A stretch of DNA of 13,003 nucleotides from Clostridia bacterium (GTDB lineage Bacteria > Bacillota_A > Clostridia > Christensenellales > Aristaeellaceae), in NCBI GenBank assembly GCA_017518705.1, contig JAFWUC010000061.1:1-13003 (forward strand), in the 5' to 3' direction. The number at the start of each line of letters is the position of its first letter. The first letter of the stretch is position 1. Shown in pieces: positions 1-13,003 of this stretch. Under the pieces are notes generated by a model. It was not told the origin of the DNA, ran no database searches, and saw nothing but the letters and a program-made list of their open reading frames with translations. The position numbers and the translations under genes are program-made.

Positions 1-987
1 ACGCCTTACAGCGCCCACCTCACCGTCTCAGAGTGGGTGGACGAATATCTCAGAGCCTACCGTACAAAGGTCAATCCACTGTACCATACCCAGGATGATG
101 TACCGTACAACCGGCTCAAGTCTGCCCTGGGTGACCGCATGCTGTACTCCATTCGGGAAATAGATCTCCAGGCGGAGCTCAACTCTCTCTCCGGACGCAG
201 CTTCTCCACCCTGGACAAATACATGCAGGCCATGAAGCGGGTGTTCAAAAAGGCCCGCAAAAACAAGCTCATAACCGACGATCCCGCCGAGGATCTCACT
301 CTCCCCTCCTACACGAAGGGCACCCACCGGGCCTTGACTCCGGAGGAGATAACGCTTATACTTAAGTATTGGAACGTGCCGGAGAACTACGCCGGGCTCT
401 GGGTGCTGCTCATGCTCTTCTGCGGGCTCAGGCGTGGGGAGATGATGGCCCTGGACTGGTCCGCCGTAGATCTGGCCGGACGCACTTTGACCGTCAGGCA
501 GACCGCCGTTATAAACTCCAATCAGATAGTCATTGAACAGCGGGCGAAGACGGAGGCGGGCGTGCGTATCCTGCCCATCCCTGACTATCTGTACGCCGCC
601 CTGGCTGCCATCCCCGTGAAGCGCGGGTTCGTGTGCCTGTCGCCCCGGGGAAAGCCCCTCACGGAGTCTGTGGTGTCGGACGGCCTCAAGCGTTTCAATT
701 CCGTGGTCAACCGCATGGAGCGCGGTGAACCGCCCGTCCAGCGCGGACGGCGCACGGATAAGGAACCGGAACCACCGCCCACGTTTACGCTGCGCTATCA
801 CGACCTGCGGCACACTTACGCCACGCTCCTGTATAATGCCGGTGTGGATGTCAAGACCGCCGCATACCTGTTGGGTCACAGCGACATAACCGTCACCATG
901 AAGATCTACACCCACCTGTCGGAAGAGCAAAAGGCCGTCTCCACACAGGCCCTCACCGCCTACCTTGACGGCCTGAAAACACAGTAA
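1..987 (+). CDS. int: Tyrosine-type site-specific integrase, 5' end cut off by the window
   Basis: Catalyses integration and excision of a mobile element by DNA strand exchange through a covalent phosphotyrosine. The frame is open to base 1 and reads TVSEWVDEYL before the GTG at 37, which is the usual start of an integrase SAM-like core-binding domain, so the true start lies upstream and 37 is not the start. In the 328 visible residues the order is core-binding domain (about 1-100), then catalytic domain with the full pentad: Arg in CGLRRGEM, Lys in AKTEAGVR, His and Arg in HDLRHT, His in LLGHSD, and the nucleophile Tyr in KIYTHL near the C-terminus. A short charged, proline-rich insert sits just before HDLRHT. 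An N-terminal arm-binding domain is presumably outside the window. The gene ends 95 bp before a tRNA 3' fragment, the classic position for an integrase at the end of its element. It looks intact and functional. Confidence 0.95.
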   Translation, partial: TPYSAHLTVSEWVDEYLRAYRTKVNPLYHTQDDVPYNRLKSALGDRMLYSIREIDLQAELNSLSGRSFSTLDKYMQAMKRVFKKARKNKLITDDPAEDLTLPSYTKGTHRALTPEEITLILKYWNVPENYAGLWVLLMLFCGLRRGEMMALDWSAVDLAGRTLTVRQTAVINSNQIVIEQRAKTEAGVRILPIPDYLYAALAAIPVKRGFVCLSPRGKPLTESVVSDGLKRFNSVVNRMERGEPPVQRGRRTDKEPEPPPTFTLRYHDLRHTYATLLYNAGVDVKTAAYLLGHSDITVTMKIYTHLSEEQKAVSTQALTAYLDGLKTQ

Positions 988-998
988 ACCTGTCCGTT

Positions 999-1062
999 GG
1001 ATGTCAAATGGATGTCAAACACAAATCATGAAACCGCCAAATCTCCCTATTTTATTGACATC
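999..1062. repeat. Three copies of GATGTCAA beside the attachment site (likely integrase arm sites)
   Basis: GGATGTCAAA occurs at 999-1008 and again at 1010-1019, an 11-bp (one helical turn) phase. The octamer occurs in inverted form, TTGACATC, at 1055-1062. All three lie between the integrase stop codon and the tRNA-derived core. Short repeats in this position are typically bound by the N-terminal domain of tyrosine integrases or by an excisionase. The repeats are seen directly; the role is inferred from position. Confidence 0.55.
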
Positions 1063-1082
1063 TTGCGATTTACCAAAACAGC

Positions 1083-1124
1083 TTCGGGACCAAAAGGTCG
1101 CAGGTTCAAATCCTGTCACCTCGA
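1083..1124 (+). other. attR-type attachment site: 3' fragment of a tRNA-Pro gene (anticodon CGG)
   Basis: These bases fit the 3' part of a tRNA exactly: anticodon loop TTCGGGA (1083-1089, anticodon CGG), 3' anticodon stem CCAAA (1090-1094), 5-nt variable loop, T stem-loop GCAGG/TTCAAAT/CCTGT (1100-1116), acceptor strand CACCTCG (1117-1123) and discriminator A (1124), with no CCA encoded. The five bases before the loop (ACAGC) cannot pair with CCAAA, and no D-arm or 5' acceptor strand lies upstream, so this is not a whole tRNA. Identity breaks at the anticodon stem, a common crossover point for tyrosine integrases. The element lies to the left and the host chromosome to the right. The rebuilt full tRNA should sit at the element's far end. 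Confidence 0.85.
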
Positions 1125-1130
1125 TAGCGC

Positions 1131-1165
1131 AGTGGGCAGGAATAAACGTTCCTGTCCGCTTTTTT
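1131..1165 (+). terminator. Rho-independent terminator, originally that of tRNA-Pro
   Basis: A 12-bp stem (1131-1142 with 1149-1160, two G-T wobbles, core GGGCAGGAA with TTCCTGTCC), a 6-nt loop TAAACG and a run of six T (1160-1165). It starts 6 nt after the tRNA fragment's last base, as expected for a tRNA transcript terminator left on the chromosomal side of the junction. It would now stop transcripts coming out of the integrase gene. Confidence 0.8.
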
Positions 1166-1191
1166 GTTTACTTTTTTACGGAGGTATCGTC

Positions 1192-2244
1192 ATGAAAAAA
1201 GTCGGCGTGCTGGGGCTGGCGCACGGCCACGTTTTCTCTTTCGGGAAAGAATGGAACGAAAACAAGGCGCTGGATGTGGAGATCGCGGGCGCATGGGACA
1301 GAGATCCTCAAAGGCTTAAGGAAGGCGCTGAAAAGCTCCGCACCAGGGCGTACGGTGACCTTGACGAGCTGCTTGGCAGCGGCATAGACGCCGTGGTGAT
1401 CACCTCCGAGACCGCTTTTCATGCGGAGCTTGCGGAAAAGGCCGCATCAGCCGGCAAAGACATTATCCTGTACAAACCCATGGCGCTCACCATGGCGGAG
1501 GCAGAACGCATAGTCGCCGCCGTGGAAAAGGCGGGCGTGCGCCTCACCATGGGCTGGCAGATGCGCGTCGACCCCCAGAATATTGAGATCAAACGGCTGA
1601 TCGAGTCCGGTGAACTGGGCAAGCCCTGCCTGTTCCGCCGCCGTCACGGGCTCCCCACCCACGTGTGGGCGGACTTCAGGAACACCTGGCACAACGACCC
1701 TCGTATGAACCGCGACATTTTCGCGGACGACTCTTCCCATCCCTTCGACCTGATGCTGTGGCTGTTCGGCATGCCCGAGTCTGTCACCTGCGAAATGAGC
1801 ACCGTGGTCGATCCCGACATAAAAAACGACAACGCAGTGGCGGTGTTCCGCTATCCGAGCGGGCTGATCTGCGAGCAAAGCCTGTGCTTTACCTGTTCCG
1901 CTTCCGAGATAACCACGGAAGTCTATCTGTCCGGCGGCTCCATACAGCAGTACTTCGGCGACAATCCTGCCTGCCGCCTGCACCGCCCCGCCGGCGTTCA
2001 GGGCCTTAAGTGGTACAGGGAAGGCGACGCGGACTGGACTGCCAGCAGCATCCCCAGCCCCAGGTCCCACGGCGAGCGCCTGACAGCGCAGGCAAAGCCC
2101 TTCGCCGAGTTCCTGCACGGCGGTCCCGCGGTGGCCGATGCCCGGGAAGCCCGCAACTGCCTGAGGCTGGTGCTCATGTGCTACCTCTCCGCCCGTGAAG
2201 GCAGGCGCATATACGCCGACGACGAAAGGGTATACGATATCTGA
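1192..2244 (+). CDS. Gfo/Idh/MocA family NAD(P)-dependent oxidoreductase (350 aa), YKP variant
   Basis: Predicted cytoplasmic sugar or cyclitol dehydrogenase; the exact substrate is not readable. The start is ATG 1192, because GGAGG lies at 1180-1184 with 7-nt spacing and the Rossmann fold begins at once; the open frame upstream runs through the tRNA fragment. The N-terminal Rossmann domain has VGVLGLAHGHV (residues 4-14). The usual EKP motif reads YKP (94-96), keeping the catalytic-type Lys95 and losing Glu. The C-terminal alpha/beta domain has the family His in SSHPFD (His183, Asp186). The length is normal for the family. It is the first chromosomal gene after the attachment site, lies 26 bp past the terminator's T-run with no clear promoter, and converges on the CHEV GH4 gene. 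The family is certain, the reaction is not. Confidence 0.9.
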   Translation: MKKVGVLGLAHGHVFSFGKEWNENKALDVEIAGAWDRDPQRLKEGAEKLRTRAYGDLDELLGSGIDAVVITSETAFHAELAEKAASAGKDIILYKPMALTMAEAERIVAAVEKAGVRLTMGWQMRVDPQNIEIKRLIESGELGKPCLFRRRHGLPTHVWADFRNTWHNDPRMNRDIFADDSSHPFDLMLWLFGMPESVTCEMSTVVDPDIKNDNAVAVFRYPSGLICEQSLCFTCSASEITTEVYLSGGSIQQYFGDNPACRLHRPAGVQGLKWYREGDADWTASSIPSPRSHGERLTAQAKPFAEFLHGGPAVADAREARNCLRLVLMCYLSAREGRRIYADDERVYDI

Positions 2245-2257
2245 TCTTCCGGCGCAC

Positions 2258-2300
2258 ACAAAAGCACAGCCCGGTCCGTCCGGGCTGTGCTTTTGTATTT
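2258..2300. terminator. Bidirectional terminator between convergent genes
   Basis: A 17-bp perfect stem (2258-2274 with 2280-2296; core AGCACAGCCCGG with CCGGGCTGTGCT), a 5-nt loop TCCGT, and flanks that give a T-rich tail on both strands (CTTTTGTATTT on +, CTTTTGTGT on -). It sits between the stop codons of the Gfo/Idh/MocA gene (+) and the GH4 gene (-) and can end both transcripts. Confidence 0.88.
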
Positions 2301-2306
2301 CGGGTC

Positions 2307-3704
2307 TTATTTTATCAGGCCTTCGGGCACGTAAGCTTTCTGGGCGTCAAGCATGTCGTCAAACAGCTTTTCTCCGTCCTCCAGCCCCACATTGCCCATC
2401 TGCGGGTCGTTCATGAACGTGTCCAGTGCCAGCTTCCTGTCGCCGTCCAGTATGGCGCGCAGCGCGTTCTCCTGATTCTGCACGTGGCGGGTCACCAGGG
2501 GCAGCACGCCCTTGGGCATATTGCCCGCGTACACGGGCTGGATGCGGTCGAGCCCGAACAGCGCGTTGGTCTCCACCATAGCGCCCAGGGGCAGGTCGGG
2601 GCACTGGCCGCGGTTGGGCACGTTCACGTTGCTCACCAGGTCTCCCAGCCCCAGCAGCGCCTTGAGCAGCAGGTGGCCTTCCTCTCCGGAAGGCGTCAGG
2701 TCGATCTGCTCCTTGCCGCTGATAAGGTCGTCGCTGCGCTGGAGCCGCTTCACAAGGTCGTTTTCACGCCAGTCCACTGTGGTCAGGCCGAACTTCCACT
2801 TTGTGACCGTCTCGGGAGTCATGGTGTACCACCTGGGCACGAACTCGGCAAGATGCCTGTCGCCCGCCGCCGCGATGGCGCCGTAGCGCAGGAACAGGTC
2901 GAACTTGACCCTCTGGGCGCAGCGGAAGCTGGAGTTCATCCAGTTAAGGTCGCCGCCCTCGTCAAAGCCTTCTTCCCAGTATTTCGCCGCGAATTCCCGG
3001 TACATGGGCATGAGGTCTATGCCCTTGTAGGACGCACTCGTGAGCCAGGTGAAATGGTTGATGCCGGTGACGGTGGTGTACAGTTCGTGCCTTTCCGCCT
3101 CTATGCCCGTGTTCTCCTTCAGCATGGCGCACAGCAGCTTTTGGGTGCCGAACACCTCGTGGCAGCAGCCGAAAGCCTTGACCTCGGGGAACACCTCGTA
3201 CAGCGTGCGCACGCACAGCGTCATGGGGTTGGTGTAGTTTATCACCCAGGTGTCCGGAGCGTAGTCGCGTATCGCTTTGGCGATCTCCCGGTACATGGGT
3301 ATGGTCCTTACCGCGCGAATGAAGCCGCCGGGACCCACCGTGTCGCCCACGGGCTGGTAGATGCCCAGGCGCTCGGGCGCGTGCACGTCGCTGCGCATTT
3401 CCTTAAAGCTGGCAGGCAGTATGCTTATAACAGTAAAGTCCGCGCCGGTCAGCGCCTGCTGAAGGCTGTCCGCCACGGTGTATTTCCAGCGGGATCTGGC
3501 GTCGGGATGCGCGCTGATCTTGTTGCCGATGGTCTCGTTCCTGAGCGCGGCTTCCCGGTCAATATCGTACAGGCGCACGGTGCCGCAGATCTGCGGGTCG
3601 TTCGCCAGGTCTTTCATAAAGCCCCACGCCCAGCCGCGGCTGCCGCCGCCTATGTAGGCGATATTAAGTCCGGTCACTTTGTTTGCTTTGACGTCGTAGT
3701 TCAT
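2307..3704 (-). CDS. Glycoside hydrolase family 4, alpha-galacturonidase-like (CHEV signature), 465 aa
   Basis: GH4 enzymes are cytoplasmic and need NAD+ and a divalent metal (usually Mn2+). They cleave glycosides by oxidising C3 of the sugar, eliminating the aglycone, then adding water and reducing back. Visible here: dinucleotide loop YIGGGSRG (17-24), acidic DID (47-49), NYTNP (156-160), metal-site CHEV (Cys181, His182) and GINHFTW with His217. In the published GH4 tetrapeptide scheme CHEV marks alpha-galacturonidases such as Bacillus subtilis LplD, and the length is close. The start is ATG 3704, since GGGAAAGGA ends 7 nt upstream; an in-frame GTG at 3722 overlaps that ribosome site. It is divergent from the second GH4 gene. 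A galacturonide substrate, perhaps from pectin, is inferred. No truncation is seen. Confidence 0.88.
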   Translation of the reverse strand: MNYDVKANKVTGLNIAYIGGGSRGWAWGFMKDLANDPQICGTVRLYDIDREAALRNETIGNKISAHPDARSRWKYTVADSLQQALTGADFTVISILPASFKEMRSDVHAPERLGIYQPVGDTVGPGGFIRAVRTIPMYREIAKAIRDYAPDTWVINYTNPMTLCVRTLYEVFPEVKAFGCCHEVFGTQKLLCAMLKENTGIEAERHELYTTVTGINHFTWLTSASYKGIDLMPMYREFAAKYWEEGFDEGGDLNWMNSSFRCAQRVKFDLFLRYGAIAAAGDRHLAEFVPRWYTMTPETVTKWKFGLTTVDWRENDLVKRLQRSDDLISGKEQIDLTPSGEEGHLLLKALLGLGDLVSNVNVPNRGQCPDLPLGAMVETNALFGLDRIQPVYAGNMPKGVLPLVTRHVQNQENALRAILDGDRKLALDTFMNDPQMGNVGLEDGEKLFDDMLDAQKAYVPEGLIK

Positions 3705-3748
3705 ATCATATTCCTTTCCCACTCACTGGCGTTTATTCGCTTTATGAT

Positions 3749-3777
3749 ATTATACGCTTCAGCCGCAAAAAAGTCAC
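3749..3777 (-). promoter_or_regulatory. Promoter for the CHEV GH4 gene
   Basis: On the - strand GTGACT (3777-3772; 4 of 6 to TTGACA), 17 bp, then a perfect TATAAT (3754-3749). Transcription would start near 3742, giving a leader of about 40 nt before ATG 3704. Confidence 0.6.
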
Positions 3778-3799
3778 CAGCATTGTTTTGGGCTTGAGC

Positions 3800-3828
3800 T
3801 TGTATAAGCGTTGATATTGTGTTAAAAT
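3800..3828 (+). promoter_or_regulatory. Extended -10 promoter for the GH4 / ParB-BMP / phosphoesterase operon
   Basis: TTGTAT (3800-3805), 17 bp, TAAAAT (3823-3828) preceded by TG at 3820-3821 (extended -10). The expected start is near 3835, so the leader is about 80 nt. It is back to back with the promoter of the CHEV GH4 gene, and the two -35 elements are only 22 bp apart, so one regulator could control both. Confidence 0.5.
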
Positions 3829-3849
3829 GTGGCAAGAGCGTTTTCGAAG

Positions 3850-3904
3850 CGGGCAAAAACTGAGCGGTGCCCGTTCCTTTCCCGAGAGCCGTTGCCGCTG
3901 CGGC
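3850..3904 (+). other. Hairpins in the leader of the second GH4 gene
   Basis: CGGGCA (3850-3855) pairs with TGCCCG (3868-3873), followed by a short pyrimidine run. Then GCCG-CTG-CGGC (3894-3904) ends directly against the GGGAG ribosome site (3905-3909). They could modulate translation or be chance in GC-rich DNA. Confidence 0.25.
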
Positions 3905-3913
3905 GGGAGCATT

Positions 3914-5413
3914 ATGAAAATAGCGTTTATCGGAGCCGGTTCCATAGGCTTTACCCGGCGGCTGCTGGCGGACATACTGACCGTGCCGGAGTTCAGGAAC
4001 ATCGAGGTCGCGTTCACGGACATAAATCAGAACAACCTGGACATGGTCACGCAGCTGTGCCAGAGGGACATAGAAGCAAACGGGCTGGACATCAAAATAC
4101 AGTCTACCCTTGACAGGCGCGCGGCATTCAAAGACACCAAATACGTTATCAGCTGCGTGCGCATAGGCATGCTGGAGGCGTTCACGAAGGATATCGAAGT
4201 TCCCCTCCGCTACGGCGTGGACCAGTGCGTGGGTGACACCCTGTGCGCGGGCGGCATCATGTACGGACAGAGGGACGTAGCCGCTTTCGAGGGCTTCTGC
4301 AAAGACATCAAAGAGGTCGCCCTGCCCGGCTGCATGCTGCTCAACTACTCCAACCCCTGCGCCATGGTGACCTGGTACTGCAACAAGTACGGCGGCGTGC
4401 CCACCGTGGGCCTGTGCCACGGCGTGCAGGGCGGCCACCAGCTCATCGCAAACGCGCTGGGCTACAAAAAAGAGGAGATCGACATCATCTGCGCGGGCAT
4501 CAACCACATGACCTGGTATATTTCCGTAAAGCACAACGGCGTCGACCTGAATGACAAGCTCCTGGCGGCGCTGGAGGCGAATCCCGACATCGCCCGCACG
4601 GAGAAGGTCAGGATCGACATGATGCGCCATTTCGGATACTTTTCCACCGAGTCAAACGGCCATCTGTCCGAGTACGTGCCCTGGTACAGGAAGCACACCC
4701 AGAACATCCTCAAGTATATCGACCTGGGCAGCTGGATAAACGGCGAAACGGGCGGGTATCTCAGGGTGTGCAACGAAGGCCGCAACTGGTTCGAGACCGA
4801 CTTCCCCAACTGGCTGAAGCAGCCGCCATTCGAGTACAAGGCTGACAAGCGCTCCTCCGAGCACGGCAGCTACATAATCGAAGGCCTGGAGAACGGCCGT
4901 GTCTACCGCGGTCACTTCAACGTGGTCAACAACGGCACCATCACCAACCTGCCCGACGACTGCATCGTGGAAGTGCCCGGCTACGTGGACGGCAACGGCA
5001 TAAGCATCCCCAGGGTGGGCGACCTGCCCCTGGGCTGCGCGGCGTGCTGCAATTCCAACGTGAGCGTGCAGCGCCTGGCGGTGGAAGCCGCGGTCAGGGG
5101 CGACATAAAGCTGCTGAGGCAGGCCATGCTCATGGATCCTCTGACCGGCGCCGCCTGCGAACCCGATGCCATATACCAGATGGTGGACGAGCTGCTCATA
5201 GAAGAAGCCGAGTGGCTGCCACAGTACGCCGAAGAGATCGAAAAAGCCAAGCGGCGCATCGCCGAAAGCAAGGCAAACGGCACGTTCATCCCTCCCATCG
5301 TGACCGAAGGCGCGGCGCGGCTGCACACGAAGACCGTGGAAGAAATGCTCAAAGACCGGGAGGCGGCCACCGCCAACGCGGGCGAAGCCGACAAAGCCAA
5401 AAAACGTTTTTAA
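3914..5413 (+). CDS. Glycoside hydrolase family 4, alpha-glucosidase/alpha-glucuronidase or MelA-like (CHGV signature), 499 aa
   Basis: NAD+ and metal-dependent intracellular glycosidase, predicted to act by the C3-oxidation/elimination mechanism of GH4. Seen: FIGAGSIGF (5-13), TDIN (35-38), NYSNP (144-148), metal-site CHGV (Cys168, His169) and GINHMTW with His198. The surroundings resemble MelA alpha-galactosidase, but that enzyme has CHSV; CHGx is the signature associated with alpha-glucosidases and alpha-glucuronidases, so the sugar is uncertain. The start is ATG 3914: GGGAG at 3905-3909 precedes it (spacing is short, 4 nt) and the Rossmann strand begins at residue 2; the open frame upstream is leader. 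The C-terminus is longer than in MelA-type enzymes and ends in a Lys/Glu/Ala-rich charged tail (about residues 455-499). First gene of a three-gene operon, 22 bp before the next. Confidence 0.88.
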   Translation: MKIAFIGAGSIGFTRRLLADILTVPEFRNIEVAFTDINQNNLDMVTQLCQRDIEANGLDIKIQSTLDRRAAFKDTKYVISCVRIGMLEAFTKDIEVPLRYGVDQCVGDTLCAGGIMYGQRDVAAFEGFCKDIKEVALPGCMLLNYSNPCAMVTWYCNKYGGVPTVGLCHGVQGGHQLIANALGYKKEEIDIICAGINHMTWYISVKHNGVDLNDKLLAALEANPDIARTEKVRIDMMRHFGYFSTESNGHLSEYVPWYRKHTQNILKYIDLGSWINGETGGYLRVCNEGRNWFETDFPNWLKQPPFEYKADKRSSEHGSYIIEGLENGRVYRGHFNVVNNGTITNLPDDCIVEVPGYVDGNGISIPRVGDLPLGCAACCNSNVSVQRLAVEAAVRGDIKLLRQAMLMDPLTGAACEPDAIYQMVDELLIEEAEWLPQYAEEIEKAKRRIAESKANGTFIPPIVTEGAARLHTKTVEEMLKDREAATANAGEADKAKKRF

Positions 5414-5435
5414 ATCAAAAGATCGAGGAGAATAA

Positions 5436-7370
5436 ATGTCCTATCAAAGCGAAGCCGTAGACCAATATTACAGCGCCCTTCGGCAAGGCAAAAAATACTT
5501 CAGCGCCTGCATGGCAAAAGGCATATCGCCCTATCCCGCGGTGCTGAAAAACATACTTAAATCCTCCGCAGCTTCCGCCACCCAGGAACTGGGCATAATC
5601 GACATACCCATAAACCGCATCACCGGCACCTGGGCGGAAGGGCGAAAAGCCGCCTTTGCGGGGAACTTCATGCCCCTTATCGACATAAACACCGAGTTCG
5701 GCTCCAAATGGGTCAACCTGTGCGCGTCCCAGTTCGACCAGGGCATAACCACCCCCATAATCTGCTACGAATACATGGGCAACTTCTACGTGCAGGAAGG
5801 CCACAAGCGGGTAAGCGTAATGCGGAGCCTTGAGGCATCCAGCATCCAGGGTCAGGTCACCCGCCTGCTGCCCGACCCCTCCGACGACCCGGCGGTCAAG
5901 CTGTATTACGAATTCATGGATTTCTACAAATGCAGCGCGCTGTACACCGTGTCCTTCTCCGTTTCGGGCGGGTACGCCCGTCTGCAGGCCGCCCTCGGTT
6001 TCGAGCCCGGGCAGGTGTGGGGCGAAGCGTTCAGGCGCGATTTTGCCGGCGAGTTCATGCGTTTTTCCGGCGAGTTCGAACGCCTGAACACCGAAAAGCT
6101 GCCCATCACCGCCGCCGACGCGCTGCTTACGTATATGGAAGTGCATCCGTTTGCCGAAATGCGGGACATGACCAACGAGGAGCTGCACAAAACGCTCGCC
6201 GCCGTCTGGCCGGACATCCGCCTGCTGGCCCAGGGCAGTCCCATCTCCTTCAGCTCCGAGCCCGTAGTCAAGGAAAAAAGCCTGATCGAGCGCATACTCG
6301 GCTCTGACAAGCTGCACGCGGCGTTCATATACGATTTTGACCCCGCCACCAGTCCCTGGGCGTCAGCCCACAAGCAGGGCGAAAACTACCTGAAGGAGCG
6401 GGCTTACCCGGATCTCACCGTGAGCAGTTACCTGACCCGCGGCGATGCCGCGGGCTGCATGGAACAGGCAGTCTCAGACGGCGCGAACGTGATATTCGCC
6501 ACCACTCCCAACCTGATAGACGCCTGCCGCAGAGTCGCCGCGGAGCATAAGAACGTGGCTGTTTACAACTGCTCCCTCTCCCTCGCCTACGCGGAGGTGC
6601 GGGGCTACTACTGCCGTATCTACGAAAGCAAGTACATAGCCGGAGCCATCGCGGGCGCCATGGCGCGGGGCGACAGGATAGGCTATGTGGCCAACTATCC
6701 AATAGTGGGCACCGTGTGCGCCATCAACGCATTCGCCTTGGGCGCGCGGCTCACCAATCCCCGGGCAAAGGTCTGCCTTAAGTGGAGCTGCCTTGAGGGC
6801 AATCCGGTGCAGGAACTGCTGGACACAGGCATAGACGTGATCAGCAACCGGGACAGGGACGGCGCCGATTCCCAGCTGGTTTGGCACCAGGGCACATATT
6901 TCGTAGAAAACGGGATCATGCGTCCCCTTGCCTCCCCCCGCTGCAACTGGGGCGTGTTCTACGACAAGACCATACGCGCGCTGCAGGCCGGCGGCATAGA
7001 AGCCGCCCGTGACAGCCGGCGCGCCGTGAACGACTGGTGGGGCCTGAGCGCGGGCATGGTCAACGTGGACCTGGACGAAAGCCTGCCCCGCGGCCTCAAA
7101 ACGCTGGCCGGGATACTTAAAAGCGGCATTACGTCGGAAGCGATAGACCCGTTCCTCTGCCCTCTGACGGATCAGAACGGCAACGAGATAAGCGACGGCA
7201 CCCATCGCTTCACGCCCGACGAACTCATGCGCATGGACTGGCTGAACGACAATGTGGAAGGGCACATCCCCGAATTTGACGAACTGCTGCCCCAGTCCCG
7301 CAACCTGGTAAGGCTGCTGGGCGTCCACCGCGACACCATACCGCCCGAGACCGAGGAAAGCACGTTATGA
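5436..7370 (+). CDS. Fusion of ParB/Srx-like N-terminal domain with BMP/PnrA-like ligand-binding domain, 644 aa, cytoplasmic
   Basis: Function unknown. Residues about 53-140 look like a ParB/sulfiredoxin-fold domain: the IDIPINRITG strand is followed by FYVQEGHKRVSVMR, where G122-HK-R125 matches the GxxRxxA nucleotide-binding motif of ParB-type proteins (last Ala is Val). A helical linker (about 150-285) follows. Residues about 293-620 resemble the basic membrane protein/PnrA family of periplasmic-binding folds, which bind nucleosides (AAFIYDFDP start, GANVIFATTP, YESKYIAGAIAGAMA, IGYVANYPI). Substrate-binding proteins of transporters carry a signal peptide or lipobox; this one has neither, so it should stay in the cytosol, and no permease or ATPase gene is nearby. 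The ribosome site GAGGAG (5425-5430) precedes ATG 5436. Its stop overlaps the phosphoesterase start by 4 bp. A role as a ligand sensor is inference. Confidence 0.75.
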   Translation: MSYQSEAVDQYYSALRQGKKYFSACMAKGISPYPAVLKNILKSSAASATQELGIIDIPINRITGTWAEGRKAAFAGNFMPLIDINTEFGSKWVNLCASQFDQGITTPIICYEYMGNFYVQEGHKRVSVMRSLEASSIQGQVTRLLPDPSDDPAVKLYYEFMDFYKCSALYTVSFSVSGGYARLQAALGFEPGQVWGEAFRRDFAGEFMRFSGEFERLNTEKLPITAADALLTYMEVHPFAEMRDMTNEELHKTLAAVWPDIRLLAQGSPISFSSEPVVKEKSLIERILGSDKLHAAFIYDFDPATSPWASAHKQGENYLKERAYPDLTVSSYLTRGDAAGCMEQAVSDGANVIFATTPNLIDACRRVAAEHKNVAVYNCSLSLAYAEVRGYYCRIYESKYIAGAIAGAMARGDRIGYVANYPIVGTVCAINAFALGARLTNPRAKVCLKWSCLEGNPVQELLDTGIDVISNRDRDGADSQLVWHQGTYFVENGIMRPLASPRCNWGVFYDKTIRALQAGGIEAARDSRRAVNDWWGLSAGMVNVDLDESLPRGLKTLAGILKSGITSEAIDPFLCPLTDQNGNEISDGTHRFTPDELMRMDWLNDNVEGHIPEFDELLPQSRNLVRLLGVHRDTIPPETEESTL

Positions 7371-8035
7371 AAATTCTGCTCGTAGCCGACGAGGAAGCCA
7401 AATACCTGTGGGATTACTATCAGCCGGGCCGCTTAAGCGGCATCGACTGCATACTGTCCTGCGGCGATCTGAAGCAGGAATATCTGGAGTTTCTGGTCAC
7501 CATGAGCGGAAAACCTCTGTTTTACGTGCACGGCAACCACGACTCCGGCTATGAGAATTATCCCCCCGAAGGCTGCGACAGCGCCGAAGACACTATTATC
7601 AACTTCGGCGGTCTCAGGATACTGGGGCTGGGCGGCTGCATCCGCTACAACCCCGGTCCCTATCAGTACAACGAAAAGGAAATGCGCGCCCGCATAAGGC
7701 GCGCGTCCCGCAAGATAAAAAGGGCGGGCGGAGTCGACATAGTGATCACCCACGCCCCGCCCCGGGGTTACGGCGACGCGCCGGACAACGCCCATCGCGG
7801 TTTCGAGTGCTTCGTGAAACTGATGGACGAGTTCCACCCCAAATACTTCATACACGGTCACGTGCATCAGAGCTACGGCGACCGGCTGCCCCAGTCCTTC
7901 ACCTATGGCGACACCACCGTGTACAACGCCGTCGGCTGGCACATTCTGGAGATAGACGCTCCGGAGCCCGCAGTCAGACAAAGCGGCCTTGGCGGGTGGT
8001 TCGCCCGCCTTAAAAAGCGCGGTGCGGACAAATAA
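7367..8035 (+). CDS. Calcineurin-like metallophosphoesterase, 222 aa, altered first metal motif
   Basis: Binuclear-metal phosphoesterase fold, probably cytosolic; the substrate (a phosphodiester, nucleotide or phosphosugar) is not readable. Motifs in order: VADEE (Asp8), CGDLK (Gly33-Asp34), GNHD (56-59), THAPP (His129) and GHVH (164-167). The normal first motif is D-x-H; here it is D-E-E, so one usual metal-ligand His is replaced by Glu10. The other motifs are complete, so catalysis is still plausible. The ATG overlaps the stop of the ParB/BMP fusion in ATGA, with a GAGGAAAG ribosome site inside that gene (7353-7360), which implies coupled translation and a shared role. The C-terminal tail (about 205-222) is basic. 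It is the last gene of the operon, before a strong terminator. Confidence 0.88.
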   Translation: MKILLVADEEAKYLWDYYQPGRLSGIDCILSCGDLKQEYLEFLVTMSGKPLFYVHGNHDSGYENYPPEGCDSAEDTIINFGGLRILGLGGCIRYNPGPYQYNEKEMRARIRRASRKIKRAGGVDIVITHAPPRGYGDAPDNAHRGFECFVKLMDEFHPKYFIHGHVHQSYGDRLPQSFTYGDTTVYNAVGWHILEIDAPEPAVRQSGLGGWFARLKKRGADK

Positions 8036-8092
8036 ACACCGCTTCCCGATAAAAGCTTGACCCGCTCCCGTCCCGCGTCAGGTTCGGAAACG

Positions 8093-8140
8093 AAACGATG
8101 ATCCCGCCGGTGTATGCCAGCGGGATCATCGTTTATTTTT
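8093..8140. terminator. Strong terminator ending the GH4 / ParB-BMP / phosphoesterase operon
   Basis: A 15-bp perfect stem AAACGATGATCCCGC (8093-8107) with its complement at 8120-8134, a 12-nt loop, and a tail TTTATTTTT (8132-8140) on the + strand. On the - strand the tail (GTTTCGTTTCC) is weaker but could also stop the convergent Gfo/Idh/MocA transcript, which has no other hairpin plus T-run after its stop codon. The rest of 8036-8228 holds nothing else recognisable. Confidence 0.88.
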
Positions 8141-8228
8141 ACCTAAATAGGAACGGTATTCCCCATGATAACGCTCTCGGCCGAAAGCCGGCGGCGGTTC
8201 TCGGTTATTCCGGTTGGTTTTTCCGCAT

Positions 8229-9206
8229 TTAGTCCGCCCTGAGCGTACACTTTTTGTCTCCCGCTTCACGCGCCAGCAGCGCTATGCGGGTGCTTTCGAG
8301 CGCATCCGCCGCAAAGCGGTCCGCAGTTCCCGCATTTATGGCTTTCACGAATTCCCCGAAGGCGTCTCCGGGCTCGGGCAGGCTTATGGCGCGGCTGGGT
8401 CCGTCGTTTTCCAGCCATGCCGTGCCGTCGATGACCTCTATCATGCCTTTCGTGCCCGTTACACGTATGCGGTCGTCGTCGTGGCGCGCGCCGCCTGCGG
8501 GACGGAAGTAATCCGCCGACACCGTGGCGAACACCTGATTTTCCAGTTCCATCTGTATCACCGCGCTCATCTCGGTCTCGCCCCAGCCTCTGTTGACGCG
8601 GGCGCTTTGCAGCGCTGAGACGCTTAAACACTTCCCGCCCAGCGCCAGGCACCAGTCCAGGGCGTGTATCGCGACCCAGGGGATCAGGCCGCCGTATTGG
8701 TCACGGTGCCTGAAGAATTCCGGCCGCGTGCCGAATTTATAGCTTTTCTGGCCGTGGATAAGGCGGATCTCTCCGATCTCTCCCGCCTCTATCGCCCGTT
8801 TCACGCCCAAAAACCAGCTTGACCAGCGCAGGTTGAACATGCCCCCCAGCGGTTTGCCGGACGCCGGGTACGCTTTTTTCAGCATTTCCAGGTCTTCCAA
8901 AGTCGTGGCCAGAGGCTTTTCGCAGTACACCCCGCAGCCCTTGCGCAGGCACTCAGTTGCTACTGCCGCGTGGCGGTCGTAGCGGGTGTCGACTTCGACC
9001 ATGTCCGGCTTCTCAATGTCGATCATTTCCCGCCAGTCTTCGTAGAACGGTATATTCCTCCTTGCGGCGACTATCCTGAGCGACGTGTCGTCCGTTCCGT
9101 CCTTCGGGGAAGCAACGGCCGTTATATCGCACGTATGATTCTTGTCCGCGCTGTCCAGAGCCAGTCCGTAATGGCCCGCGCAGCCGATTATGCCCACTTT
9201 CAGCAT
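8229..9206 (-). CDS. Gfo/Idh/MocA family NAD(P)-dependent oxidoreductase (325 aa), canonical EKP
   Basis: Predicted cytoplasmic sugar dehydrogenase, reductase or related enzyme; substrate unknown. The Rossmann start is VGIIGCAGHYG (4-14), the cofactor/catalytic motif is CEKPLA (Glu96-Lys97-Pro98), and the C-terminal domain carries IHALD with His181 and Asp184, the usual active-site His and partner. Trp/Arg-rich NLRWSSW (125-131) lies where substrate-binding residues are often found. The start is ATG 9206: AGGAG (9221-9217) lies 10 nt upstream and the Rossmann strand begins at residue 2; an in-frame TTG at 9233 would include the ribosome site and is rejected. Unlike the first oxidoreductase of this window it keeps the full EKP, and sequence similarity between the two looks low, so they are not a recent duplication. 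It is divergent from the flavoprotein operon and shares its control region. Confidence 0.9.
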   Translation of the reverse strand: MLKVGIIGCAGHYGLALDSADKNHTCDITAVASPKDGTDDTSLRIVAARRNIPFYEDWREMIDIEKPDMVEVDTRYDRHAAVATECLRKGCGVYCEKPLATTLEDLEMLKKAYPASGKPLGGMFNLRWSSWFLGVKRAIEAGEIGEIRLIHGQKSYKFGTRPEFFRHRDQYGGLIPWVAIHALDWCLALGGKCLSVSALQSARVNRGWGETEMSAVIQMELENQVFATVSADYFRPAGGARHDDDRIRVTGTKGMIEVIDGTAWLENDGPSRAISLPEPGDAFGEFVKAINAGTADRFAADALESTRIALLAREAGDKKCTLRAD

Positions 9207-9226
9207 GGTTTTTCGTCTCCTGTGAA

Positions 9227-9255
9227 TTGCCAATTTACGGTAAATATGATATTAT
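9227..9255 (+). promoter_or_regulatory. Promoter for the OYE-SDR-FAD operon
   Basis: TTGCCA (9227-9232, 5 of 6 to consensus), 17 bp, TATTAT (9250-9255, 5 of 6). Transcription should start near 9262, giving a leader of about 52 nt that contains the inverted repeat at 9281-9296. An inverted repeat fills most of the spacer. Confidence 0.65.
9233..9245. promoter_or_regulatory. Inverted repeat ATTTAC-G-GTAAAT, candidate operator
   Basis: A perfect 6-bp inverted repeat with a 1-bp centre. It lies immediately after the -35 of the + promoter and across the expected start of the - transcript, so a bound dimer would block both. A further half-site GTAAAT is at 9266-9271. No regulator gene is in the window. 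Confidence 0.5.
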
Positions 9256-9274
9256 AAACGGGCACGTAAATCAA
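9246..9274 (-). promoter_or_regulatory. Divergent promoter for the EKP-type Gfo/Idh/MocA gene
   Basis: On the - strand TTGATT (9274-9269), 17 bp, TATCAT (9251-9246). It physically overlaps the + promoter, so the two polymerases would compete. The start would be near 9239, inside the inverted repeat at 9233-9245. Confidence 0.5.
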
Positions 9275-9280
9275 GTATTA

Positions 9281-9296
9281 TGTTGATCTTTCAACA
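9281..9296. promoter_or_regulatory. Inverted repeat TGTTGA-TCTT-TCAACA, candidate operator or leader hairpin
   Basis: Perfect 6-bp arms, 4-bp spacer. It lies in the leader of the flavoprotein operon, just upstream of the - promoter's -35, and 5 bp before the ribosome site GGGAGG (9302-9307). It lacks the central CG of a CcpA cre site. It could bind a second regulator or form a small RNA hairpin. Confidence 0.4.
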
Positions 9297-9313
9297 GTAC
9301 CGGGAGGCTCCCC

Positions 9314-10618
9314 ATGCCGCACGAAACGTTTCACTACCGATCCTGGACGGACATAGAAAACACCGCTGATGCCCTGGGCATTTCCCTGCCCCGCAGCGAA
9401 AACACGGACGTACTGAAAGCCCCGCTTAAGATCGGCGCGTTCACTGCGCATAACCGCATCGCGCTGCAGCCCATGGAAGGCACCGACGGCACCGGATCGG
9501 GCAGTCCGGGCGAGCTTACCGTGCGCCGCTACCTGCGTTTTGCCCGGGGCGGCGCGGGGCTCATATGGTTCGAAGCCGTGGCCACCGCACCCGAAGTGCG
9601 CGCCAGCGCTCACCAGCTTATGCTCACCAGGGACAATCTGGACGACTTTAAGCGCCTTGTATCCGAGATCAGGGAAGCGGGGCTTAAACAGAACGGCTAC
9701 GCCCCTGTGCTCGTCATGCAGGCCACAAATTCCGGGCGCTACTCCAAGCCGCACGGCTGTCCAGAACCGCTGATCGCCTATAACAATCCCCTGTTTGAGG
9801 ATACTCCCCTGCCTGAAAGCTGCATCCTGTCGGACGACCGGCTCAAAGCCTACGAGGAGCGCTTCGGAGAGACCGCCCGCCTGGCGCAGGCTGCCGGCTT
9901 TGACGGCATGGACGTGAAATGCTGCCACCGTTACCTGGCCTGCGAGCTGCTGTCCGCCTACACCCGTCCGGGCGCCTACGGCGGCAGTTTTGAGAACCGC
10001 ATCCGCTTTTTGCTCAACGCATACCGGGCGGCGCGGGCGAATATTACGGGGGATTTCTTCCTGACCAGCCGCCTGAACGTGTACGACGGGTTCCCCTATC
10101 CCTACGGTTTCGGCGTAAAGCCTGACGGCGGCCTGACCCCCTGGCTGGAGGAAGGCAAACAGCTGGTCGGCATACTCAAAAACGAGATGGATATACCGAT
10201 ACTGAACATCACTATCGGCAACCCCTACAAAAATCCCCACGTCAACCGCCCCTACGACCGTGGCAACTACGTGCCGGACGAGCATCCCTTTACGGGAGTC
10301 GACCGCATGATGCGCTGCGTGGGCGAGATACAGCGCGCCTACCCCGGACTGCCCGTCATCGGCAGCGCGTTTTCGTATCTCAGGCAGTTCGCGCCCCAGC
10401 TGGCAGCGGGCATGATCGAGCAGGGGTCCTGCGCCATGGCGGGCTTCGGGCGAATGGCGTTTGCCGACCCGGATTTCCCGAACAAGATCCTGTCCGGAAA
10501 GTCGCTTGACGCGCCCTGCGTGACCTGCGGCGGCTGCGCCCGGCTGCTGCGGGCAGGCAGTCCGGCGGGCTGCATCGTACGCGACCGCCAAATCTATTCC
10601 CTGGAGGCGCTCAAATGA
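9314..10618 (+). CDS. Old Yellow Enzyme-like NADH:flavin oxidoreductase with C-terminal 4Fe-4S motif, 434 aa
   Basis: Predicted FMN TIM-barrel ene-reductase-type enzyme of the 2,4-dienoyl-CoA reductase/NADH:flavin oxidoreductase family. Seen: APLKIGAFTAHNRIALQPMEG (barrel start, about 36-56), MQATNSGRY (135-143), and the signature RPG-AYGGSFENRIRF (218-232). In the substrate/FMN motif, where relatives read IHGAHGYL, this protein reads VKCCHRYL (201-208): the first His is Lys202, the second is kept as His205. At the C-terminus Cys402-x2-Cys405-x2-Cys408-x11-Cys420 fits a 4Fe-4S cluster. The large C-terminal FAD/NAD(P) domain of dienoyl-CoA reductase is absent, so electrons must come from a partner. 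Ribosome site GGGAGG (9302-9307), 6-nt spacing. First gene of an operon, overlapping the next by 4 bp. Substrate unknown. Confidence 0.88.
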   Translation: MPHETFHYRSWTDIENTADALGISLPRSENTDVLKAPLKIGAFTAHNRIALQPMEGTDGTGSGSPGELTVRRYLRFARGGAGLIWFEAVATAPEVRASAHQLMLTRDNLDDFKRLVSEIREAGLKQNGYAPVLVMQATNSGRYSKPHGCPEPLIAYNNPLFEDTPLPESCILSDDRLKAYEERFGETARLAQAAGFDGMDVKCCHRYLACELLSAYTRPGAYGGSFENRIRFLLNAYRAARANITGDFFLTSRLNVYDGFPYPYGFGVKPDGGLTPWLEEGKQLVGILKNEMDIPILNITIGNPYKNPHVNRPYDRGNYVPDEHPFTGVDRMMRCVGEIQRAYPGLPVIGSAFSYLRQFAPQLAAGMIEQGSCAMAGFGRMAFADPDFPNKILSGKSLDAPCVTCGGCARLLRAGSPAGCIVRDRQIYSLEALK

Positions 10619-11361
10619 GGATCGCTTTAGTCACCGGTTCCACCCGCGGCATAGGCCGCGGCATCGCCGAGAAGCTCGAAACGGAAAGTTATCGGGTCGT
10701 ATACTCCGGCACCCGCCCCGTTCCCGCGGCGGAGCTGCCCGAAAACGCGGTATACATAGGCTGCAACATCGCCGACGCTTCACAGCGTGAAAACCTTTTC
10801 AGCGAAATAATGCGCCGCTTCGGGCGCCTTGACGTGCTGGTGAACAACGCGGGCATGGCTCCGAGAGTCAGACGCGACATACTCGAGACCACGGAAGAGA
10901 GCTTCGACGAAGTGCTGGGCGTAAACCTGAAAGGCACTTTCTTCATGTGCCAGGCGGCGGCAAAACTCATGCTTGAGCTGAAACAGAAGGGGCTTCAAGA
11001 CTACAGTCCCCGCATCATAAACATCGGCTCCATGTCCGCCTACACCTCCTCGACCAGCCGCGGCGAATACTGCATATCCAAAGCCGGCATCGGCATGGTG
11101 ACGCTGCTTTTCGCGGACAGGCTGGCCGAAGCCGGCATCCCCGTGTTCGAGATACGCCCCGGCATAATCAATACGGACATGACCAAGGTCGTGCACGAAA
11201 AATACGAAAACCTGATCGCGGGCGGCCTGACCCCGATAAAACGCTTCGGCCAGCCAAAGGACGTGGCGGACATGGTGGCGGCGTGCTGCTCCGGGCTGCT
11301 GGACTTCACGACGGGCCAGGTATTGAACGCGGACGGCGGCTTCCACATAAGGAGACTTTGA
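10615..11361 (+). CDS. Short-chain dehydrogenase/reductase (SDR), 248 aa
   Basis: Classical SDR that oxidises an alcohol or reduces a ketone with NAD(P). Seen: TGSTRGIG (7-14) cofactor loop, NNAG (77-80), Asn104, Ser139 in NIGSMSA, and the catalytic YCISK (Tyr152, Lys156); the ADGG near the C-terminus is typical of FabG-like members. Length is normal for the family. Translation is coupled to the OYE-like gene through ATGA (10615-10618), with GGAGG at 10603-10607 inside that gene, and the FAD gene starts 1 bp after its stop. FabG-like features do not imply fatty acid synthesis here: no other fab gene is present. A role on a keto sugar or a small cyclic ketone handled by the flanking flavoenzymes is inference. 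Confidence 0.93.
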   Translation: MRIALVTGSTRGIGRGIAEKLETESYRVVYSGTRPVPAAELPENAVYIGCNIADASQRENLFSEIMRRFGRLDVLVNNAGMAPRVRRDILETTEESFDEVLGVNLKGTFFMCQAAAKLMLELKQKGLQDYSPRIINIGSMSAYTSSTSRGEYCISKAGIGMVTLLFADRLAEAGIPVFEIRPGIINTDMTKVVHEKYENLIAGGLTPIKRFGQPKDVADMVAACCSGLLDFTTGQVLNADGGFHIRRL

Positions 11362-11362
11362 C

Positions 11363-13003
11363 ATGCGCGTCGGACAGACAGATATCGAGACCTGCGTATA
11401 CCGCACCGTGGTCATCGGCTCCGGCTGCGCGGGGCTCAACGCGGCCCACTGGCTTAAGTGCCTGGGCGAAACGGACCTGTGCATAGTCACGGACGGGATC
11501 AACCGGGGCACTTCCCGCAACGCGGGCAGCGACAAGCAGACGTATTACAAGCTCTCTCTGGCCGGGGACAAGCCGGATTCGGTGTACGATATGGCCCGGA
11601 CGCTGCTCTCCGAGGGCGTAAACGGTGACACGGCGCTGTGCGAGGCGGCAGGCTCCGCGCAGTGCTTTTTCAAGCTCAGCCAGCTGGGAGTGGATTTCCC
11701 CACCAACGAATACGGCGAATTCGTGGGCTACCGCACGGACCATGACACCCGGGGGCGCGCTACTTCCGCCGGACCGCTCACCTCCAGAAAGATGACCGAA
11801 GCGCTGGAAAAGGAAGTTACGCGCCTCGGCATCCCCATGTTCGACGGCTGGACGGCTTTCGCGCTGATCAGGGATTCGGGCCGGATCGCCGGAGTTCTGG
11901 CGTACAGCCGGACCGAGTGCAGGCTGCGCCTGTTCGCCGCCGCCCACGTTATACTGGCTACGGGCGGACCTGCGCAGATATATGACTCGTCGGTGTACCC
12001 GTTAAGCCAGCAGGGCATGACGGGCATGGCCGCGCAGGCGGGCGCGCGCATGAGCAACCTGCACCAGTGGCAGTACGGCATCGCCTCCGTAAAGTTCCGC
12101 TGGAACCTGTCAGGCAGCTATCAGCAGGTGCTCCCTCGCTATGTATCCGTGGATGAAGACGGTAAAGAGCACGAGTTCCTTATCGACGCCTTCCCGGACG
12201 ACCCCATGGAGGGCGTGCGCCGCGCGTTCCTTAAAGGCTACGAGTGGCCCTTCGACGTGAGAAAGACCGGCGGTTCCTCGCGTATAGACCTGCTTGTCCA
12301 AGCCGAAAACTCCAAAGAGCGGAAAGTGTACCTGGATTTCAGGCGCGATCCTTCGCCCCTGGCGCGTGACCTGTCCAACCTGGACGGCGAGGCGAAAGCA
12401 TATCTGGAAAAGACGGGCGCCACGCAGGACACTCCTTTCGGGCGGCTTATGTGCATGAACGCCCCCGCGGTGGAGCTTTACAGGTCCCACGGCATAGACC
12501 TGGAGACCGAAATGCTGGAGATACGCGTATGCGCCCAGCACCATAACGGCGGCGTGGCGGTGGACACCGACTGGCAGACTAACATCCCGGGGTTGTACGC
12601 CGCGGGAGAAGCTGCCGGCACCTTCGGCGCGTACCGCCCCGGCGGCTCGGCGCTCAACGCCACCCAGGTGGGTTCCATGCGCGCCGCCAGGCATATCGCT
12701 TATATCAGCAGGCTCGAACCCGTGCAGGATCCCGAAACGCTGCTTAAGCAGACAACGGAGGCGCTTAGCGGCCTGGCTTTTTCCGGGGATCCCCAGAAAA
12801 CAGCAGACACATTCCGCGCAGCCATGAGCCGCTTCGGCGCGCATTCCCGCGACATCCGCGCGCTCGGCGCTCTGGACGCGCAGCTTAAGCAAACGCTGGA
12901 AAACGCGGACAGACCGTTTGACTCACTGCCCGAAGACATGGAAGCGCGCCTGCGCCTTAAGGATCAGCTGGTCACCCAGCGCGCCGTCATCAGCGCGATG
13001 ACC
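11363..13003 (+). CDS. Fumarate reductase/succinate dehydrogenase-like FAD flavoprotein, 3' end cut off by the window
   Basis: FAD-dependent oxidoreductase of the FrdA/SdhA/AprA fold; 547 residues are visible and the frame stays open to the last base. Seen: FAD loop VVIGSGCAGLNAA (16-28), then SRNAGSDKQTYYK (51-63), ILATGGPAQIY (197-207), and the C-terminal FAD segment GLYAAGEAAG (410-419) followed by RPGGSALNATQVGSMRAA. There is no signal peptide, Tat motif, haem motif or flavin-transfer domain, so it should be a soluble cytosolic protein and not a respiratory fumarate reductase. Start ATG 11363 with TAAGGAG (11348-11354), 1 bp after the SDR stop. The middle part (about 215-400) has no motif I can name. 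It may be the redox partner of the Fe-S OYE-like protein or may itself act on a cyclic substrate; both are inference. Confidence 0.85.
   Translation, partial: MRVGQTDIETCVYRTVVIGSGCAGLNAAHWLKCLGETDLCIVTDGINRGTSRNAGSDKQTYYKLSLAGDKPDSVYDMARTLLSEGVNGDTALCEAAGSAQCFFKLSQLGVDFPTNEYGEFVGYRTDHDTRGRATSAGPLTSRKMTEALEKEVTRLGIPMFDGWTAFALIRDSGRIAGVLAYSRTECRLRLFAAAHVILATGGPAQIYDSSVYPLSQQGMTGMAAQAGARMSNLHQWQYGIASVKFRWNLSGSYQQVLPRYVSVDEDGKEHEFLIDAFPDDPMEGVRRAFLKGYEWPFDVRKTGGSSRIDLLVQAENSKERKVYLDFRRDPSPLARDLSNLDGEAKAYLEKTGATQDTPFGRLMCMNAPAVELYRSHGIDLETEMLEIRVCAQHHNGGVAVDTDWQTNIPGLYAAGEAAGTFGAYRPGGSALNATQVGSMRAARHIAYISRLEPVQDPETLLKQTTEALSGLAFSGDPQKTADTFRAAMSRFGAHSRDIRALGALDAQLKQTLENADRPFDSLPEDMEARLRLKDQLVTQRAVISAMT

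Follow-up and report, generated by a model that had tools for sequence, protein, structure and literature searches.

A 13,003-nucleotide stretch of DNA from a Clostridia bacterium (Christensenellales, Aristaeellaceae; GenBank assembly GCA_017518705.1, contig JAFWUC010000061.1, positions 1 to 13,003, forward strand), hereafter referred to as the window, carries a gene in which a ParB/sulfiredoxin (Srx)-type domain is joined to a BMP/PnrA-type solute-receptor domain. A first-pass annotation, made by a model from the DNA letters, had proposed that this fusion works inside the cell, coupling the binding of a nucleoside-like or sugar ligand to a nucleotide-handling module. The constant partner of the fusion, which that annotation had not named, is the metallophosphoesterase encoded by the adjacent gene (Table 1).

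Table 1. The fusion gene, its parts and its immediate neighbors (nucleotide positions in the window).
Feature	Position	Strand	Remarks
Fusion gene	5436..7370	+	644 aa; predicted cytosolic; N-terminal helix, ParB/Srx-type domain, helical middle, BMP-type receptor domain
ParB/sulfiredoxin-type fold (residues 50-147)	5583..5876	+	Bears the invariant Box II motif E121-G122-x-K124-R125
GHKRVSV (residues 122-128)	5799..5819	+	GxxR phosphate motif; family form EG[N/H]KR
Helical middle region (residues 148-289)	5877..6302	+	Without clear structural match
BMP/PnrA-type solute-receptor domain (residues 290-612)	6303..7271	+	Nearest AtzT and Brucella 3s99; purine-contact residues altered
Partner metallophosphoesterase, 222 aa	7367..8035	+	ATGA overlap of its start codon with the fusion's stop; DxE in motif I
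GH4 glycosidase, 5' of the fusion	3914..5413	+	22 bp gap; local neighbor, shared with L001 and L002

The fusion is encoded by a single uninterrupted frame with an ATG start, as had been claimed. Comparison with the relative L002 (84% protein identity) gives 74, 53, and 289 differences at the three codon positions, and the changed codons comprise 234 synonymous and 101 nonsynonymous ones; this pattern and the synonymous excess therefore indicate purifying selection on the frame. When about 5.8 billion proteins were searched, 7998 candidates were scored, and 3455 of them matched at E ≤ 0.001. The 120 homologues listed measure 570-690 residues, a Bmp domain is present in every one of them, and the few bearing a name are called BMP-family ABC-transporter substrate-binding proteins (Clostridia, Anaerolineaceae, Flexilinea). 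Searches for stand-alone N-terminal modules gave 24 short or partial proteins in a first round and 481 in a second one, for which the 120 proteins listed have lengths up to 502 aa and contain no Pfam domain, or Bmp, with P0192, P0248, and P0254 as exceptions; most of these matches are read as fragments of the same fusion, without a case-by-case check. The predicted structure of the window protein has a predicted template modeling score (pTM) of 0.85, suggesting that the two domains are arranged in a defined way and so could be coupled.

The ParB/Srx fold proposed for the N-terminal domain is clearly borne out by the predicted structure and weakly by the sequence. Pfam profile searches recovered Bmp in the window protein (residues 306-450, E 4.4e-11) and not ParB_N: the Pfam ParB family gave no match up to E 1 with the window protein, and none up to E 5 with its N-terminal part. 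ParB_N matches 3 of 71 N-terminal pieces of the family, weakly (best E 0.0078), and the match of the N-terminal part to sulfiredoxin 6ky4 is also weak (E 0.37). The phosphate motif lies exactly where it had been placed, and its family form is invariant in 206 sequences, with G122 and R125 in 206/206, and Asn or His at residue 123 in all of them. The Box II GxxR arginine of the ParB-CTPase fold is thus present, and the predicted structure has the ParB/Srx fold. It differs from sulfiredoxin in that the Cys of the GCHR motif (6ky4 alignment) is replaced by the Asn/His at residue 123. A survey of the ParB-CTPase fold, collected by PF02195, has reported that approximately 70% of the bacterial proteins are joined to other domains, and that 11 of 28 purified proteins bound nucleoside triphosphates (NTPs), binding being lost on changing the GxxR arginine (Kaljevic et al., 2025, PMC12704722). 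The present fusion resembles those proteins, some of which are reported to bind CTP, ATP, or GTP, in combining the fold and its GxxR with another domain, and departs from that collection in largely escaping the PF02195 profile, as described above.

A metallophosphoesterase match was found downstream of the fusion, on the same strand and within 1.5 kb, in 81/81 loci (the window plus 80 relatives, the best 80 of 226 matches), starting at most 200 bases past the fusion match in 79 of them. With a simple gene caller the fusion was called as one frame in 76/81; the gene that follows is the phosphoesterase in 71 of them, with a 4-base overlap of both genes in 23 of these 71. Because such top-ranking matches represent near relatives, the survey was widened to 391 Clostridia-class genomes from the class of G001 (Lachnospiraceae). 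Here the full-length fusion occurs in 39 genomes (41 matches) and the phosphoesterase (E ≤ 1e-25) in 41; both are present in 38 and neither in 349, and the fusion stands without the enzyme in G109 alone, where it is cut by a contig end. Forty of the 41 full-length matches were taken as regions (L091-L130, which may share genomes with L001-L080); the remaining one, from G001, is locus L081, which also has the phosphoesterase, and L081-L090 duplicate places already included and were left out of the counts. The phosphoesterase lies downstream in the same direction in 14 of the 40 loci, tail-to-tail on the opposite strand in 20, 476 bases downstream in L128 and directly upstream in L130; the four loci with no adjacent phosphoesterase are L112 (contig end), L121, L127, and L129.

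In a quick unrooted tree of 66 fusions (the window, L091-L130 and the odd-numbered loci of alignment A1, some end branches being long), the 20 convergent loci all fall on one side of a branch with a Shimodaira-Hasegawa-like approximate likelihood ratio (SH-aLRT) value of 99, accompanied by L112, L121, L128, and L130, and gene arrangement changes 5 times on the tree versus a mean of 21.9 after shuffling. The tail-to-tail order of this second clade therefore shows that the pairing was kept through one or more changes of gene order. Furthermore, the fusion of Collinsella aerofaciens (Actinomycetota; 32% identity over 94%) is followed, with a 4-base overlap, by a gene annotated as metallophosphoesterase, and both motifs are present in this pair.

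Several particular loci deserve a separate mention. The Collinsella pair (L151, NZ_OY725717.1) is situated beside ribosomal protein genes in a 900 kb record that is labeled plasmid and looks chromosomal; a Subdoligranulum variabile record labeled as a 56-kb plasmid (L152, OY725845.1) contains a fusion with 42% identity, immediately followed by the phosphoesterase; and a record from human feces labeled bacteriophage, possibly bacterial DNA, contains both genes (L153, MT836456.1). The divergent copies at L127 and L129 adjoin genes with MatE and HATPase_c_2 domains, and L129 also a SpoIIE-type phosphatase. In 9 of the 26 loci L105-L130 (L108, L110, L111, L112, L117, L118, L119, L121, and L123), and in none of the other 95 fusion loci, the fusion is immediately preceded by a DUF402 gene of the same orientation, with 17-36 bases separating the two matches; the likeness of DUF402 to the nucleoside tri-/diphosphatase NtdP is weak and below the cut-off, and because of this restricted occurrence and sub-threshold match it is taken as a lead only.

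The partner enzyme of the window scores above the cut-off of the Pfam calcineurin-like metallophosphoesterase family and has the expected metal-ligand motifs, with D8, D34, N57, and H58 conserved in 117/117 partners, H129 in 116, and H165 and H167 in 115. Among solved structures the closest matches, none of them strong, are to MPPED2 and the lariat debranching enzyme Dbr1; among the NCBI families, YfcE-type phosphodiesterases match 43/48 partners, below the curated cut-off in the case of the window's enzyme. The metal motifs D34, N57-H58, H129, H165, and H167 are shared with these three kinds of metallophosphoesterases, on weak profile matches, whereas motif I sets the partners apart, as it reads DxE in 116/117 instead of the usual DxH of the superfamily. 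At most, one may reasonably guess that the substrate is a nucleotide or nucleotide-like phosphodiester.

With regard to the C-terminal half, the Bmp match and the predicted BMP fold confirm its likeness to solute receptors. AtzT has been reported to bind guanine (Kd 110 nM) via Y45, S97, the backbone at F98, E165, W194, N218, and N220 (PMC6834077). In the 76 sequences of the window's clade, the place of Y45 is occupied by Trp in all, that of S97 by Thr or Ser in 64, that of F98 by Pro in 70 and that of E165 by Gly in 74, and Trp is found in none at the place of W194, which, like N218 and N220, is a loop position, alignment-dependent and less sure (N220 falls on residue 474 or 473 in two pairwise alignments). 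On the other hand, E165, W194, and S97 are kept in 20/20 BMP-only control receptors (L131-L150, hand-picked along the genome-match list of the same genome sample, not randomly). The pocket of the convergent clade is intermediate, with Asp or Glu at the E165 place in 23/24, and, at the less certain loop places, Trp for W194 in 15/24 and Asn for N220 in 20/24. A purine ligand, or a nucleoside ligand of the kind suggested by the annotation, is thus doubtful in the window's clade, because the guanine contacts E165 and W194 are lost there. Since the convergent, sister clade partly keeps these contacts, a purine-type receptor was probably the source of the receptor domain. In the window's clade the pocket has been rebuilt, presumably for another ligand, with the nucleotide motif unchanged. 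A sugar or sugar phosphate may be that ligand, as a survey of Bmp-family receptors predicts sugars for almost all of them (PMC9602780).

The absence of a signal peptide and lipobox, also claimed by the annotation, holds when judged by hydropathy and pattern only. The highest 15-residue hydropathy within the first 60 residues reaches 1.67 across 121 proteins (the window's and its 120 homologues) and 1.71 in the 76 alignment rows, and ranges from 2.13 to 3.36 in the 20 controls; a lipobox-like pattern occurs in 3/121 fusions (P0077, P0106, and P0114) and 0/76 alignment rows, and a lipobox in the first 60 residues of 19/20 controls. Transporter genes are equally lacking next to the fusion: a BMP-type permease was found within 6 kb in 0/121 fusion loci versus 20/20 control loci, and a phosphoribosyltransferase in 1/121 versus 14/20. 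Flanks of at least 5 kb on both sides are available in 77/121 fusion loci, and of at least 3 kb on one side in 114, so for a few loci the permease absence was judged on a short stretch. The permease and ATPase queries were drawn from controls L131, L140, L144, L147, and L150, which consequently match themselves; the scan of control neighbors covered 76 of 117, chosen as likely operon members, and the later permease search covered whole regions without such a choice. Weak ABC-ATPase matches near 22/121 fusion loci (14/81, 2/14, and 6/26 in the three subsets; 64-90 bits in the eight matches listed) are read as unrelated, given that no permease accompanies any of the 121. No ABC or permease family appears among the 25 commonest of 176 Pfam families in 142 scanned neighbors of fusion loci, which are mostly housekeeping or metabolic genes.

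The control loci, in turn, encode ordinary AtzT-type BMP receptors, with permease and ATPase genes in 20/20 and the phosphoribosyltransferase in 14/20, which suggests purine uptake and salvage; the fusion loci are unlike these. AtzT and Brucella 3s99 are purine-binding receptors, and the fusion differs from both in its missing export signal and transporter genes, and in the substitutions at the E165 and W194 places of the window's clade. The predicted structures match both folds, and homologues consistently carrying signal peptides beside ABC permease genes, which would have counted against the annotation's reading, were not encountered. The fusion is accordingly predicted to be cytosolic from its sequence features, and the database label of transport receptor very probably misstates both where the protein is and what it does.

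The GH4 neighbor is local. The two GH4-family genes of the window are divergently transcribed, the second one lying at 2307-3722 on the minus strand, and share about 23% identity. The first-pass description of a fusion inside a glycosidase operon is correct for the window; it does not extend to the family, as GH4 matches are confined to the window, L001, and L002 among 151 sequences searched, many of these loci being short. A link to sugars through the glycosidase operon is therefore unsupported, and the candidate was dropped, with no bearing on a sugar ligand as such. A phage-type integrase, incomplete at the left edge, occupies 1-987; Gfo/Idh/MocA-type oxidoreductases flank both sides (1180-2244 and 8229-9233); and 9314-13003 is filled by consecutive redox genes (FMN oxidoreductase, short-chain dehydrogenase, FAD-binding protein). 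Neither Rfam, at its gathering threshold, nor a tRNA scan gave a match in the window.

Among the possible explanations, we tentatively favor, at somewhat less than an even chance, that the fusion senses a ligand in the cytosol and thereby gates an NTP module of the ParB fold, the phosphoesterase being its dedicated partner. The C-terminal domain, which probably derives from a lineage of purine-uptake receptors, would bind a small cytosolic metabolite, and its closing would alter the N-terminal module, which would bind an NTP via the invariant GxxR motif; the phosphoesterase may be the enzyme controlled by this switch, or may remove a phosphorylated signal or product. What stays constant is the nucleotide-binding motif, the two-lobed receptor domain, and the phosphoesterase, for which a ligand-gated NTP module controlling the enzyme, or reset by it, would be the simplest account. 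Of the sensor put forward in the first-pass annotation, the two-domain architecture and the cytosolic location have thus been strengthened, and the coupling itself, which we infer, is still the best reading.

Several observations weigh against this sensor. The pocket differs between the clades, which argues against one fixed ligand. Residues Q52 and E93, at what we take to be their motif positions, do not seem to be kept in the fusion, so that a hydrolysing switch would be less likely than a binding one; both are CTP-hydrolysis residues of Myxococcus xanthus ParB (PMC9178275; Q52 also in PMC12462528). In the ParB-fold survey mentioned above, 17 of the 28 proteins tested bound no NTP (PMC12704722). 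The co-occurrence of both genes has a Fisher value of 4e-48, which ignores kinship, and the phosphoesterase is found with no fusion in G088 (a weaker match, 3.4e-52), G222, and G246. Finally, the phosphoesterase of L121 is on another contig of the same genome, and L127 and L129 are second copies with no adjacent phosphoesterase, in genomes that also have a normal pair.

The main rival, which we regard as unlikely, is a kinase-phosphatase pair, in which the ParB-fold domain would be a small-molecule kinase like the free serine kinase SerK or SbnI, the BMP domain would hold or sense the substrate, and the phosphoesterase would remove the phosphate. The catalytic Glu of SerK/SbnI (E30, as in reported mutants, or E20), which precedes the Box I arginine, would fall at about residues 64-66, a place only roughly estimated from alignment ranges, and no conserved Glu is found there in the family: residue 64 is Gly in 203/204 sequences (one gap) and residue 65 is Thr in 202/204, with Asn in L127 and L129. 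The catalytic residue is thus apparently absent from the fusion, and metallophosphoesterases also act on diesters. Furthermore, SerK and SbnI are not known to have a BMP domain.

A nucleotide-signaling system of gut Bacillota and Actinomycetota is also conceivable, if rather improbable: the relocated receptor would bind a purine-like or phosphorylated metabolite, the ParB-fold domain would make or release a nucleotide signal, and the DxE metallophosphoesterase would destroy it, the pair setting the level of an undescribed signal. Lower still we place a ParB-like regulator, either a CTP- or ATP-dependent clamp or a DNA/RNA-binding protein, with a ligand domain as in LacI-type repressors; the DNA-binding helix-turn-helix of canonical ParB was looked for in the helical residues 148-289, for which no clear match appeared among the structures listed. 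There is little to recommend a defense or stress module using nucleotide chemistry with the phosphoesterase as effector: the enzyme matches the PADLOC candidate defense model PDC-S10 (E 1.3e-16), and the two-gene design and patchy presence (39/391 genomes) would fit, but PDC-S10 may just recognize the enzyme superfamily, PADLOC models give no match with the fusion at E ≤ 0.1, and the neighbors are of the ordinary kinds described above. An ordinary BMP transport receptor with an odd N-terminus, exported by another route, was dropped as barely credible after comparison with the 20 BMP-only loci, since the closeness to AtzT-type receptors and the database label are outweighed by the missing export signal, the permease counts, and the loss of purine contacts in the window's clade.

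A literature search for this fusion or pair returned no description. The terms BMP, PnrA, substrate-binding, periplasmic, and phosphoesterase are absent from the main text of the ParB-fold survey, and its supplements could still list such a fusion (PMC12704722). ParB-fold fusions being already known, the present family is one with a receptor domain and a near-constant enzyme partner. The ParB fold was recently shown to be a broad NTP-binding class joined to many domains (PMC12704722). In the sensor that we favor, the input would come through a well-understood type of domain whose pocket can be defined, and a partner enzyme is encoded next to it, so that two soluble proteins suffice for testing the ligand, the nucleotide, and the output separately. 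Altogether, the fusion and its phosphoesterase suggest an unstudied two-protein sensing system of gut bacteria.
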